In this document: positions 251-50,471 of the stretch, piece by piece
How positions within the stretch are numbered: position 1 is the stretch's first letter
Layout: every line of letters begins with the position of its first letter
Origin: Psychromonas hadalis ATCC BAA-638
GTDB lineage: Bacteria > Pseudomonadota > Gammaproteobacteria > Enterobacterales > Psychromonadaceae
Assembly: GCF_000420245.1 (NCBI RefSeq)
Contig: NZ_ATUO01000001.1
Span: 1-64,000 of the forward strand
Length of the DNA: 64,000 bases
Reading direction: 5' to 3'
Notes under the pieces: generated by a model
Databases searched by the model: none
What the model saw: only the letters and a program-made list of their open reading frames with translations
Told to the model about the DNA's origin: nothing
Made by a program: the position numbers and the translations under genes

Positions 251-1653
251 TATACTGTTAAATCTTTCATTAAGTCTTCAAGCACATCAGCCTGCATATT
301 AAGCTGCTGTACCTCTGTAGCCGACTGAGTGATCATTTCAGCAACTAAACTCGATTGACTACGTACCTGCTCGACATCGGAAGCGATGTTATCAGCTACC
401 GCTCCCTGCTCTTCTGCGGAGGCCGCAATTTCAATGCTACGATCAGCAATGTATTGATTTTTCTCTGCTATTTTCTGAATGTCACTATTAACAGTATTCA
501 TATGTTGTTCACTCAATTCAGAATTATTGACGGTTTGGTGCATTACCTTCATTAATCCTTGGCTATTGCCTTGTAGTGACTCAATCATCTTTTTGATCTC
601 CACCGTAGCTTGTTGCGTTCTACCCGCCAACGTACGCACTTCATCGGCGACAACAGCGAAACCACGACCTTGCTCACCAGCCCGCGCAGCTTCGATGGCT
701 GCATTTAATGCCAGTAAATTTGTTTGTTCAGAGATAGAGTTAATGGTCGTCACTACATTGTCAATTTGCGCAGCATCGTTATCCAGTTTTGCTACAGCAT
801 CTGCGGCTGAATTGATTTCAGAGGCTAATTGCTTTATCGCATCAAGTGTTTGATCGACATGTGTCAGACTCTCAGTTGTTGTTTGCATTGCCTCGCTAGT
901 CTGGATAGAAGTGTTGTGCGCGTGACGAGCCACTTCACGGATTGAGCTGGCCATCTGTTCGGTTGCACTGGCTAAAGAATCTATACGTTCTTGCTGTTGG
1001 CGAGATAACGCTTCATTCTCGTTACTACGTTGACGCAACTGTGCGCTAATTTGCTTGATCAATGCGATAGCTTCCTGCGTTGCTTTTACCAGCTGTTGTT
1101 CGCGAACAGAAACACGATCAATCGTTTGTGCTATTAGATTAAATTCATTTCGGGCTGGCGCATAACCAATACGAGAAGCCAGGTCGCCATCGGCAAGACG
1201 GTGTAATGCATCATAAATATTAAATAATGCTCCGCCCATAAAGGTCATAATGTAATAAAGGGATAATGAGATGAGTAAGCATGATGCGATGATAATGCTG
1301 ATATGAGCAATACTAAGTTTACTGAGTAAGCTTGGCTGCACTTGAGTTGTTAAACTGTAGTTAGCATCCTTTACCTCAGTTGTATTAACGCCCTTTGACC
1401 CCACCTGAATACTGCTGTTAGCAAGGATACGCGTAACATCGTTTTCAGACAGGTCTGATTGCGATATCAAGTTAGAAATCGTATTCATGTTCTGCAGTAA
1501 CAACTGTTCTTGTTGCTGCTGAGAAGCATTTATTAGCGCTAAACTGACCATGATGATCGCGAGAAGTGGCATAAAAAAGAGGAATAAAAAATTTTCTTTA
1601 ATTTTTACATTTACCAAATATTGATCAATCCAACGAAATGCGACTTCTTTCAT
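250..1653 (-). CDS. Methyl-accepting chemotaxis protein
   Basis: Transmembrane chemoreceptor that passes ligand signals to CheA/CheW and so to the flagellar motor. Of 467 residues, a membrane segment lies at about 22-42, a short (about 70-residue) periplasmic region follows, and a second membrane segment lies at about 113-138. A HAMP region follows to about 190, then the long coiled-coil signalling domain. The highly conserved hairpin tip ([20 protein letters not shown] and the following [12 protein letters not shown]) is intact near residues 305-345. The ATG at 1653 is preceded by AAGGAAGT. The sensory domain is too short to be a full Cache domain, so the ligand cannot be guessed. The gene stands alone, with about 1 kb of non-coding DNA upstream. 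Confidence 0.95.
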
Positions 1654-46009: not shown

Positions 46010-47589
46010 TTGACCTCCGGTGGTGTTGCAAAGGTATGATAGGGTGCTGGAGACGCGACTTGCCATTCTAAACCTTCAGCGCCATCCCAGACCTTAGCAG
46101 GCACTTTTTCTCCACCTCGAAAACATTGCACAACACAGTAAACAAATAACAGCTGTGATAAGCCAAAAGCGAAACCACCTAAACTGATGATCATATTAAA
46201 ATCAGCAAACTGCAGTGCATAATCGGCGATGCGTCTCGGCATGCCCGCAAGTCCTACAAAATGCATTGGAAAGAATAAAACGTTGACACTGATTAATGAT
46301 AGCCAAAAATGTATTTTAGCTAAGCGGATATTAAACATATGACCAGTCCATTTTGGCAACCAAAAATAGACACCCGCAATAATGGAGAATAACGCGCCTG
46401 TTACTAATACATAGTGGAAATGCGCCACTACAAAATAGGTATCGTGATATTGAAAATCTGCTGGTGTTATTGCGAGCATCAACCCGGAAAAACCGCCAAT
46501 AGTGAAAAGAACAATAAAGGCGATTGCAAATAACATCGGCACTTCAAAACTCAGAGACCCCCGCCACATTGTTGCAATCCAATTAAAGATTTTTACACCG
46601 GTTGGAACGGAGATAAGCATGGTGCTATACATAAAGAATAGTTCTGCAGCTAATGGCATACCCGTAGTAAACATATGATGTGCCCAGACAATAAAAGATA
46701 AAAAAGCGATAGACACAGTGGCATAAACCATTGAATGATACCCAAAGAGTTTTTTGCGTGAGAAGGTGGGAATGATGGTCGAAATAATGCCAAACGCGGG
46801 CAAAATCATAATGTACACTTCGGGATGGCCAAAGAACCAAAAGATGTGTTGGAACATTACTGGGTCACCGCCTCCCATTGCATTAAAGAAACTGGTGCCA
46901 AAATATTTATCGGTTAATACCATGGTGACGGTGCCGGCTAATACGGGCATGACGGCAATTAATAAAAAGGCGGTGATTAACCACGTCCAGACAAATAATG
47001 GCATTTTCATTAATGTCATGCCCGGTGCGCGTAAATTAAAGATGGTAACAATGATATTAATTGCACCCATGATTGAACTGATACCCATTATATGTATTGA
47101 AAATACAAATAAAGCGGTATTATCGTTACTATAAGTTGTTGAAAGCGGAGCATAAAAAGTCCAACCAAAATTTGGGCCTCCGCCGTCCATAAACAGTGAG
47201 CCAATTAAAATAGAGAAGGCAAAAGGTAAGATCCAAAAACTCCAGTTATTCATGCGTGGTAAGGCCATATCTGGCGCGCCAATCATCAAAGGAATCATCC
47301 AGTTGGCTAATCCTACAAAAGCGGGCATTACTGCGCCAAATACCATTATTAAGCCATGTACTGTGGTCATTTGATTAAAAAAGTTTGGTTCGACTAGCTG
47401 TAATCCGGGTTGAAATAATTCGGCGCGGATAACCATTGCCATGCCACCACCAATAAATAACATCAGTAATGAAAAGCCTAAATATAATGTACCGATGTCT
47501 TTATGATTAGTGGTATATAACCAACGTTTAATACCTGAAGCTTGGTAGTGTTCAATCGACTCATTTTGCTGCTGTTTTGAATCATTCAT
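46006..47589 (-). CDS. ctaD: Cytochrome c oxidase subunit I
   Basis: Catalytic subunit of an aa3-type oxidase (527 residues, twelve helices) holding heme a and the heme a3-CuB site. Histidine ligands are in TVHGLIMVFGAVMPA (heme a), WFFGHPEVYIMILPAFG (CuB and the cross-linked tyrosine), VWAHHMF (CuB pair) and VVAHFHYVLVTG (heme a3 and heme a). The HPEVY motif marks the A-type family. The stop of subunit II and this start share TAATG. It supplies proton-pumping respiration with oxygen. Confidence 0.97.
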   Translation of the reverse strand: MNDSKQQQNESIEHYQASGIKRWLYTTNHKDIGTLYLGFSLLMLFIGGGMAMVIRAELFQPGLQLVEPNFFNQMTTVHGLIMVFGAVMPAFVGLANWMIPLMIGAPDMALPRMNNWSFWILPFAFSILIGSLFMDGGGPNFGWTFYAPLSTTYSNDNTALFVFSIHIMGISSIMGAINIIVTIFNLRAPGMTLMKMPLFVWTWLITAFLLIAVMPVLAGTVTMVLTDKYFGTSFFNAMGGGDPVMFQHIFWFFGHPEVYIMILPAFGIISTIIPTFSRKKLFGYHSMVYATVSIAFLSFIVWAHHMFTTGMPLAAELFFMYSTMLISVPTGVKIFNWIATMWRGSLSFEVPMLFAIAFIVLFTIGGFSGLMLAITPADFQYHDTYFVVAHFHYVLVTGALFSIIAGVYFWLPKWTGHMFNIRLAKIHFWLSLISVNVLFFPMHFVGLAGMPRRIADYALQFADFNMIISLGGFAFGLSQLLFVYCVVQCFRGGEKVPAKVWDGAEGLEWQVASPAPYHTFATPPEVK

Positions 47590-49145
47590 TATTCAGCTCC
47601 TTTGATTTGATTATTGACATCTGACGCTTGAATAACTTCACCAGAACGCCCCCATGCATTACGTTCATAAGTAATAATTGCGGCAATGGTTGCTGCCGAT
47701 AATTTATCTTTAAAGGCCATCATAGCGGTCAACTCTTTGCCGTTTAAGACAAGTTCAATGTGTTGCTCAATCGGGCCTTCTATCATTGCGCTGCCTTTTA
47801 AAGCTGGGAAGGCCCCCGTTAAACCGAGTCCGCTTGCTTGATGGCACATCGCGCAATTCTCAAGATAGGCTTGCTCGCCGAGTTGCATGAGTTGTGACTT
47901 ATCAAGGTCAACGAGGGGATCTTGTGATGCTGTATTATTGGTCGATTTTTTTTCTGTGGGTATTTCAATAGCGAGTGTCGGTTGTGATGCTTTGACAGGT
48001 CTGTCAGCACTCGGTTCATTTACTTGAACATCTCTAGGTTGAACAACATCGCCTGAATTAAGACCCCACGCATTACGCTCATAGGTAATAACAGCTGCAA
48101 GTTGTTTACTTGATAGTTGTTTTGAAAATGCTTGCATTGCACTGCCAGGTTTTCCATGGAGAACAATATCGATATGTTGTTGTACATCACCGCTAGTTAT
48201 CGGGCTATCTTTTAAAGAAGGGAACAACCCCGGTAAACCTTGGCCAGTAGATTGGTGGCACACAGAACAATTGGCTTCATAAACATCTTTCCCTAAGGCC
48301 ATTAACTCATCCATGTTAAAGCTGACGTCTTTTAACGCGTCCTCTTGTTGTGCTTGTTGTGATGCTAATTGTTGCTGCTCAATTAACCATTGCTCAAACT
48401 GCTCTGGACTACGCACATCAACGACAATGGGCATGAAAGCATGGCTTTTACCACACAGTTCAGCACATTGACCACGGTAGATGCCTTCAATATTTACATT
48501 TGTCCACGCTTCATTGATAAAGCCCGGTACCGCATCTTTTTTGACTGCAAAATCAGGGATCCACCAAGCGTGAATGACATCATCGGAGGTAAATAAAAAG
48601 CGTACTTTTTTACCTGTAGGGATCACTAAGGGTTTATCGACTTCTAATAGGTAGGTCTCACTTTTTTGTTGCTGATTGGTTATTTGTGACTGAGGGGTTG
48701 AGATAATAGAGTAAAAACCAAGGTCTAATGTTTGCTGACCATAGGTTAAATATTGGTAGTGCCATTTCCACTGCGAGCCTGTCACTTTAATGGTGAGGTC
48801 TGATTTGCTTGGATCTTCCATTCTTATTAACGTTTGCGTGGCTGGGATCGCCATAGCGATCAGAATTAAAACGGGAATCGCGGTCCATAATATTTCTACT
48901 TTTGTACTTTCATGGAACTGTGCTGCTTTAGCACCTTTGCTTTTTCGATGGTTGACAATAGACCAGAACATCACTGAGAACACTAATAATGCAATGACAC
49001 AGCAAATGATAAAAATGGTCATATGTAATTGATAAACATCTTCACTGATATCAGTGACCCCTTGACGCATGTTGATGGCACTATTAGCGAATGCAATCTC
49101 AGGTAAAAAAAATATCAAATAAGCAACAGCGCGAACAAGAGTCAT
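47589..49145 (-). CDS. ctaC: Cytochrome c oxidase subunit II with two fused cytochrome c domains
   Basis: Signal peptide, two membrane helices, then the CuA domain with HAWWIPDF near 190 and the CuA motif GQCAELCGKSHAFM near 225. Two cytochrome c domains follow, with heme motifs CSVCH near 295 and CAMCH near 431, joined by a flexible linker rich in T, N and S. Both domains have methionine-containing C-terminal regions and share the NAWG ending (RNAWGLNS and RNAWGRSG), so they look like a tandem duplication. It has 518 residues, against about 380 for a one-heme caa3 subunit. AGGAGAAAGG precedes the ATG. Confidence 0.95.
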   Translation of the reverse strand: MTLVRAVAYLIFFLPEIAFANSAINMRQGVTDISEDVYQLHMTIFIICCVIALLVFSVMFWSIVNHRKSKGAKAAQFHESTKVEILWTAIPVLILIAMAIPATQTLIRMEDPSKSDLTIKVTGSQWKWHYQYLTYGQQTLDLGFYSIISTPQSQITNQQQKSETYLLEVDKPLVIPTGKKVRFLFTSDDVIHAWWIPDFAVKKDAVPGFINEAWTNVNIEGIYRGQCAELCGKSHAFMPIVVDVRSPEQFEQWLIEQQQLASQQAQQEDALKDVSFNMDELMALGKDVYEANCSVCHQSTGQGLPGLFPSLKDSPITSGDVQQHIDIVLHGKPGSAMQAFSKQLSSKQLAAVITYERNAWGLNSGDVVQPRDVQVNEPSADRPVKASQPTLAIEIPTEKKSTNNTASQDPLVDLDKSQLMQLGEQAYLENCAMCHQASGLGLTGAFPALKGSAMIEGPIEQHIELVLNGKELTAMMAFKDKLSAATIAAIITYERNAWGRSGEVIQASDVNNQIKGAE

Positions 49146-49444
49146 TCCTTTCTCCTCGGGTGTTTCATTATAAAATGGCTTAATTTGTGGTTGTTTAATC
49201 GTCTATTAAAGGTTCTATTTGGGATTCTAAAAAATTATATAAATCAACTGATGAATAAATAAATAGTCAAGGAACGAAAAATGTGCAAGTTTTAATCAAT
49301 TTAAAACTAAGTACTTAGCGCTATGTTACTTAATAGAGTGATTCAGTGTGTTGACGAGGTTGAATGAATAAAGAGGCATTAGATTAGCTAGAGATACCCT
49401 TTGCAGGATAAATACTTTGTTACAGAAAAAGTGTCAAGGAAAAC
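49146..49444. promoter_or_regulatory. Upstream region of the cox operon
   Basis: About 300 bp between the ctaC start and the pilin remnant. It must hold the oxidase promoter on the minus strand, but I could not fix its boxes. No gene seen. Confidence 0.4.
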
Positions 49445-49780
49445 GTTAATAGGGTTAAAAATCAATGGGTTACCTTAATTTAACTAGAGGTTGTTATTGT
49501 GCTTTTAGGTGTTTTAGTCGCTGTAGCGGTACCTAAATTGGTGAATTTAAGTCGTGATGTAGGTATCTAAGATGTACTTTCATACTAATTACAACTAGTG
49601 ATGGGATATTGGTTATAACCAATAAAATGCACCTGTATCAAACATGATATCTGTGTCGTAGGAAATTCTAACAGGAGTACTCTATTTACCCATTCAACGC
49701 AAGTGAATGGACGGGTAAATTATACCTATTATTACCATTTTTCTGATGGCGAATTGCCTAGTGTAGACGGTGTTTGTTAA
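49445..49780 (+). pseudogene. Decayed type IV pilin (MSHA/PilA-like) gene
   Basis: A single frame of 112 codons reads N-R-V-K-N-Q-W-V-T-L-I, stop, then LEVVIVLLGVLVAVAVPKLV and NLSRDV. This is the type IV pilin start (G-F-T-L-I-E-L-V) with GGT-TTT changed and GAA turned to TAA at 49481. In-frame TAA codons also occur at 49568, 49586 and 49616. After these the frame stays open for 53 codons (CTCIKHDIC ... NYTYYYHFSDGELPSVDGVC) to TAA 49778-49780, a pilin-like Cys-terminated end. AAGGAAAAC precedes a GTT where ATG would stand. The middle seems shortened. Confidence 0.8.
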
Positions 49781-49787
49781 AAATAGA

Positions 49788-49812
49788 AAAGGAGAACGAT
49801 TGTTCTCCTTTT
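49788..49812. terminator. Bidirectional terminator at the end of the his operon
   Basis: AAAAGGAGAAC (GGAGAAC 49791-49797) pairs with GTTCTCCTTTT (GTTCTCC 49802-49808). It lies just past the pilin remnant and about 40 bp past hisIE on the other strand, and probably ends his transcription. Confidence 0.88.
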
Positions 49813-49847
49813 CTGAAACTAAACAGCTTAATGCGTAACAGGTAAAT

Positions 49848-50471
49848 TTATTTGCTATGGCGTTCCTGCAATTTTGCTGCCACATCTGCAAGTTGTAAAC
49901 CTTCATTTTGCAATAAAACCGTTAAGTGATAAAGCAAGTCGGCACTCTCACAAGTCAGTTCATCCCTATCTTTTGCCATGGCAGCCAGTGCAACTTCTAC
50001 ACCTTCTTCACCGACTTTTTGGGCAATACGTTTTGTACCACGTGCATACAATGACGCGGTATAACTGCTTTGTGGATCAGCGCCTTTACGACTTTTAATC
50101 ACTTGTTCTAAATCTGCAATAAAGGTAAGTGCAGGTTGTAGTTTACCTTTAAAGCAGCTTTCAGTGCCAAGATGACAAGTAGGGCCAATAGGCTCAACAA
50201 TGGCAAGCAGAGTATCGTTATCGCAGTCGGTGCTGATTTCAAGTACGTTTAAGAAGTTACCTGACTCTTCACCTTTACACCATAAACGCTGTTTAGTGCG
50301 ACTAAAAAAGGTCATTTTACCTGACTCAAGTGTGGCTGCTAATGCTTCTTGGTTCACGTAACCGAGCATCAATACTTTACCTGAGGTACGGTTTTGCACG
50401 ATGACAGGCATGAGGTTATCTACCTTTGCCCAATCAAGTGCATTTAATTGTTCTATATTCATTAAGCTCAT
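49848..50471 (-). CDS. hisI: Phosphoribosyl-AMP cyclohydrolase / phosphoribosyl-ATP pyrophosphatase HisIE
   Basis: Fusion enzyme for steps 2 and 3 of histidine synthesis. The HisI half (about 1-115) has [19 protein letters not shown] and the metal-site cysteines in DCDNDTLL and HLGTESCF. The HisE half (about 118-205) has the MazG-like [20 protein letters not shown] block and [13 protein letters not shown]. It has 207 residues, normal length. Its start overlaps the hisF stop by 4 bp (ATGA), and it is the last gene of the operon. Confidence 0.96.

Follow-up and report, generated by a model that had tools for sequence, protein, structure and literature searches.

A type IV pilin gene relic between cox2 and hisIE of Psychromonas hadalis and its full-length relatives in the genus

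Between cox2 and hisIE of Psychromonas hadalis lies a short stretch of DNA that reads like a type IV pilin and is interrupted by stop codons. Is it the remnant of a gene, or is it kept in use, as a donor of pilin sequence, as a short protein or as a regulatory or RNA element? The DNA analysed (the window) comprises positions 1–64,000 of contig NZ_ATUO01000001.1, and the block in question spans 49445–49780. Its translation is as first described, and its original recognition as a type IV pilin relic was right. We assign a probability of about 0.94 to the reading that a stand-alone MshA-like type IV pilin gene has become a pseudogene here and is in neutral decay. The features of the locus, compared with genome G014 of the same genus, are as follows (codon numbers by arithmetic on coordinates).

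49451–49780, plus strand: probable pilin pseudogene, running from the AGG that now occupies the aligned start to the final TAA, ~109 codons versus 178 in G014.
49453–49566, plus strand: encodes the prepilin leader and the hydrophobic block at the N-terminus, agrees with the G014 pilin at 82 of 114 bases and has TAA 49481 at the Glu5 codon.
49567–49604, plus strand: deletion-scarred stretch, 38 bases versus 184 in G014 (net −146, not a multiple of three), internal alignment uncertain.
49605–49666, plus strand: middle block, aligned with 1190–1252 of G014 locus L034 (42 of 63 columns identical); a 1-base deletion at ~49618 restores the phase.
49720–49780, plus strand: C-terminal block (YYYHFSDGELPSVDGVC plus stop), which aligns to the ortholog C-termini; 27 of 36 bases identical over 49720–49755.
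49787–49812, no strand assigned: inverted repeat containing runs of A and T, in the gap that separates the relic from convergent hisIE.
47589–49145, minus strand: cox2, encoding cytochrome oxidase subunit II; lies divergent to the relic and is the neighbour in G014 too.
49848–50471, minus strand: hisIE, convergent neighbour of the relic.

Full-length counterparts of the relic exist in relatives. Thirty hisIE loci from relatives and the window genome were searched with the relic translation, and locus L034 of G014 proved decisive. Here, a stop-free pilin frame of 178 codons (890–1426) is located between cox2 and hisIE, which is the unbroken gene that the original prediction had proposed to look for; its expression is uncertain given its ACG start. 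The ortholog in G010 is 61% identical, has an ordinary ATG and a Shine-Dalgarno-like sequence, and lies ~1.5 kb from hisIE with another gene in between, while that of G002 is about 60% identical and is found elsewhere in the genome. The full-length frame is therefore present in three of 24 genomes of the genus (G014, G010, and G002) and the relic in the window genome; among the matches listed, the remaining genomes of the 24 display only weaker pilin matches (≤78.5 bits). When the three ortholog proteins serve as queries against 38 loci of hisIE and cox2, the gene or relic is recovered in two of these loci (window genome and G014); flanks of ≤1.5 kb were covered in most loci, and the G010 copy falls outside them. 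Within flanks of ≤1.5 kb, cox2 is likewise seen next to hisIE only in these two genomes.

The orphan pilin family is patchy: in a draw of 394 genomes from the order, the C-terminal part of the G010 protein has matches with E ≤ 1e-4 in 20. The full-length orthologs show the constraint of coding sequence: NG86 estimates among them give dN of 0.31–0.38 and dS of 1.5–2.3, the latter near saturation, and third codon positions change most. The G010 protein matches PF07963 and TIGR02532, and the best of 17 solved sequences found is 9lab (residues 2–105, E 8.5e-15). The intact family is best called an orphan MshA-like pilin.

Several observations concern the surroundings and other pilin-type frames. 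The cox2 product of the window is long (518 aa) and carries two CxxCH motifs, which probably mark two cytochrome c domains; its first 259 residues find matches in five of 24 genomes of the genus, the window genome included. On the 3′ side of hisIE (L029–L051, 22 of 23 loci read), gene content differs between genomes of the genus, and this stretch therefore looks like a variable site. Among the 80 HisIE loci listed in a scan of named genomes, the best match to the window protein is an uncultured Psychromonas at 85%, a value inside the 75–94% span of the genus members examined, which makes Psychromonas the probable genus. A distant pilin relative with one in-frame TAG occurs in another family of the order (G205:C92:125805-126167). 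Moreover, another pilin-type frame of G014 is interrupted by two in-frame TAA codons (L096, G014:C257:34500-37500, ~930–1376, minus strand), and the ortholog of this frame in G023 is stop-free and 76% identical over the searched part.

The similarity of the relic to these pilins extends beyond the N-terminus. In the N-terminal block, the 82 of 114 identical bases (72%) score 100 against the G014 pilin, while the maximum in 2000 dinucleotide shuffles is 43. The middle block scores 39 at the DNA level, a value reached by none of 2000 shuffles, and the C-terminal part scores 33, a weaker match reached by 15 of 2000. Further, the three blocks keep the order that they have in the orthologs. At the protein level, frameshift-aware alignment of the second half gives scores of 71, 63, and 54 against G014, G010, and G002, respectively, and the best of 15 mononucleotide shuffles reaches 36; at a gap opening of −11, the G010 and G002 alignments cover the N-terminal block only. 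Hence, the N-terminal and middle blocks match the pilin beyond chance, and the C-terminal block does so more weakly. Profile searches register little of this similarity: the relic has no Pfam hit up to E 0.1, and NCBIfam yields three weak pilin hits, at E values of 0.0013–0.011 that fall well short of the curated cut-offs; TIGR02532 is not among them.

The relic carries lesions that would disable a pilin gene, namely an AGG start, a TAA at Glu5, and net losses of 146 bases and 1 base. The original prediction placed the lost start at a GTT; this triplet, at 49445, is not the start, and the codon aligned with the start of the orthologs is AGG at 49451–49453. A functional type IV pilin leader has Gly-1, Phe or Met at +1, and Glu5 (PF07963/TIGR02532). 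At these places, the relic has Trp, Val, and a TAA codon. All four predicted in-frame TAA codons are present (49481, 49568, 49586, and 49616), followed by the closing TAA at 49778. Part of this pattern would suit an expressed short pilin-like protein, in which the stops are read through or TAA is reassigned, since reading TAA as a residue would yield an open frame. However, such a protein would start at AGG, would lack both cleavage-site residues, and would be encoded in part out of phase, and the closing codon of the relic as well as the stop of hisIE are TAA themselves. We regard this explanation as practically negligible.

The phase of the relic deserves closer attention, as the block had been described as kept in one frame with no frameshift. 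Counted on aligned coordinates, three net losses separate the relic from G014, of 146, 1, and 51 bases. Between 49566 and 49605, 38 bases stand against 184 in G014, and this net loss of 146 bases breaks the phase; the 1-base deletion at ~49618 puts the relic back in phase, and the further 51 bases are missing 3′ of it. The evidence for the out-of-phase segment is mainly a DNA match: bases 49605–49617 agree with G014 at 12 of 13 positions when shifted by one base relative to the diagonal of the block that follows, and at 5 of 13 without the shift, and this 13-mer matches at 12 or more positions at only one of 63,988 plus-strand positions in the window. At the protein level, the out-of-phase middle alone fits best in frame +1 with a weak score of 28, which 190 of 1000 shuffles reach. 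A frameshift is used by the alignments with G014, by the whole-length one with G010 at a gap opening of −8 and by that of the second half with G002, whereas the G002 alignment over the whole length, also at −8, does without. In the global DNA comparison of the relic with G014, the middle is gap-rich and untrustworthy. Weighing these sequence comparisons, we judged that the DNA match outweighs the protein-level evidence and that an absence of frameshifts is not supported. The two ends of the relic would share a frame by coincidence, because the losses sum to multiples of three. TAA 49586 and TAA 49616 are located within or next to the out-of-phase stretch and so need not be mutated sense codons. 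Altogether, the relic is shorter than the G014 frame by about 69 codons, roughly a third, through several losses.

Is the remaining sequence under constraint, as the original prediction had considered? In a gap-rich global alignment, 239 of 308 columns are identical between the relic and G014 (78%), and in the same alignment the 5′ flank, including a few cox2 codons, is identical in 227 of 276 columns (82%). Thus, the relic is conserved no better than the DNA around it and gives no sign of selection. Differences from G014 are distributed over the codon positions in a coding-like manner (24 of 101, 14 of 104, and 31 of 103, again from a gap-rich alignment), a pattern that a constrained G014 branch would also give. 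With the last one included, the relic has five stops in frame 0, compared with a mean of 8.6 in 1000 shuffles, so it is not fully randomised, which is a point against free decay; 56 of the 1000 shuffles have four or fewer, and the low stop count is not striking.

The same comparison bears on the proposal that a role as a regulatory or RNA element, and not as a pilin, is what preserves the DNA, which we consider very improbable. It draws on the inverted repeat 3′ of the relic, for which a similar repeat is seen by eye at the equivalent place in G014. This repeat is probably a two-way terminator shared by hisIE and the pilin gene, which would explain its presence in both genomes, and the relic itself is no more similar to G014 than the adjacent intergenic DNA. 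Additionally, an Rfam scan of 49100–49900 returns two matches, both below their gathering scores, and no family that reaches its gathering score.

A further proposal of the original prediction was that the block serves as a recombination donor for an active pilin gene, in the manner of a silent pilS cassette. The ends of the relic stand in one frame and the genome contains other pilins, as this proposal would have it. A donor cassette requires near-identical stretches in an expressed gene. Elsewhere in the window genome there are 28 PF07963 matches, none with an internal stop, and the C12 cluster is, by eye, an MSHA-like locus. The best matches of the relic among these 28 loci are N-terminal (66% over 32 aa in L014), and at the DNA level identity amounts to 64–73% over 70–148 bases. 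Beyond the N-terminus, the matches fade: a C12 pseudopilin gives a gap-rich alignment of 125 columns (29%, E 9e-7) that lies mostly on its N-terminus, L001 gives one 28-residue stretch running through a stop (joined E 0.006), and the remaining body matches have E 1.2 or worse. The G014 pilin behaves likewise: it has 15 matches in the window genome, and the 11 of them that were listed are all confined to the N-terminal half, and the G010 C-terminal part has no match at E 1e-4 in this 351-contig assembly. Of the expectation that an own-genome pilin would match either end, the N-terminal part holds essentially for the shared pilin motif, while no pilin matching the body or C-terminus was found in these contigs.

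The DNA of the relic gives the same picture. Apart from itself, it has 40 matches in its own genome; those elsewhere in the genome are 15–35 bases long with E 0.40 or worse, and one (E 0.11) is a palindrome within the relic that matches itself. The 351 contigs yielded no further copy of the relic, nor a recipient for recombination, a cassette array or a long near-identical stretch in a pilin gene of its own genome. Being single-copy and having out-of-phase segments, the relic is an extremely improbable donor. A word upstream of the relic, 49407–49431, recurs in many contigs as a 15–24-base match and was rejected as a lead, as the match does not extend; according to 11 of 12 fetched stretches compared, it is located inside two multi-copy sequences, which by eye look like parts of insertion sequences, and at one other place.

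We therefore return to the reading as a pseudogene. Most likely, no pilin is produced from the relic and it serves no function at present, as far as its sequence can tell. The gene may have become dispensable in a genome with 28 other pilin- or pseudopilin-type N-termini, including the MSHA-like cluster; it would then have been inactivated and would now be decaying without constraint.

The G014 frame raises the question of whether the same gene is failing there as well. At the aligned start, behind a Shine-Dalgarno-like sequence, it has ACG (L034, 890–892), with a TAA just upstream and no ATG, GTG or TTG 5′ of the hydrophobic block. Protein identities are 107 of 170 between G014 and G010, 101 of 169 between G014 and G002, and 92 of 168 between G010 and G002. 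The G014 protein has therefore diverged from the other two no more than these have from each other, which suggests that the loss is recent, that ACG is a weakly working start codon or that the sequence contains an error. If real, the ACG would mean that this gene has been hit a second time, in a neighbouring species. A parallel loss of the orphan pilin, shredded in the window genome and with an ACG start in G014, is a tentative and rather unlikely scenario; it could mean repeated selection against a surface pilin, for example in escape from phages or predators. Alternatively, the G014 pilin could be made at a very low level from its non-standard start codon.

Taken as a pseudogene, the pilin-like block represents a gene that has died while full-length relatives persist in the genus, and most of the support for a silent recombination cassette is removed. 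The relic itself is ordinary, and the patchy orphan pilin family may interest students of pilin repertoires. Among the papers listed on pilin pseudogenes and MSHA, orphan pilins, and Psychromonas pilins, none describes the gene, judging by titles and abstract openings.

Among known systems, the silent pilS cassettes of Neisseria likewise consist of partial pilin sequence without a start, as does the relic. In contrast to them, the relic is a decayed single copy for which no matching expressed recipient was found in the 351 contigs. The MshA-type major pilin of the MSHA system (PDB 9lab) shares the N-terminal motif with the G010 ortholog and is its best solved match, whereas the C-terminal part of the latter (residues 106–175) lies outside the matched stretch. 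Unlike the MSHA pilin, the gene described here is stand-alone; the stretches of G014, G010, and G002 that were read show no pilin operon around it. The closest likeness is to pilin pseudogenes and other lost genes for surface structures, in which loss of the start, a premature stop, and internal losses occur alongside full-length orthologs, as in the relic.
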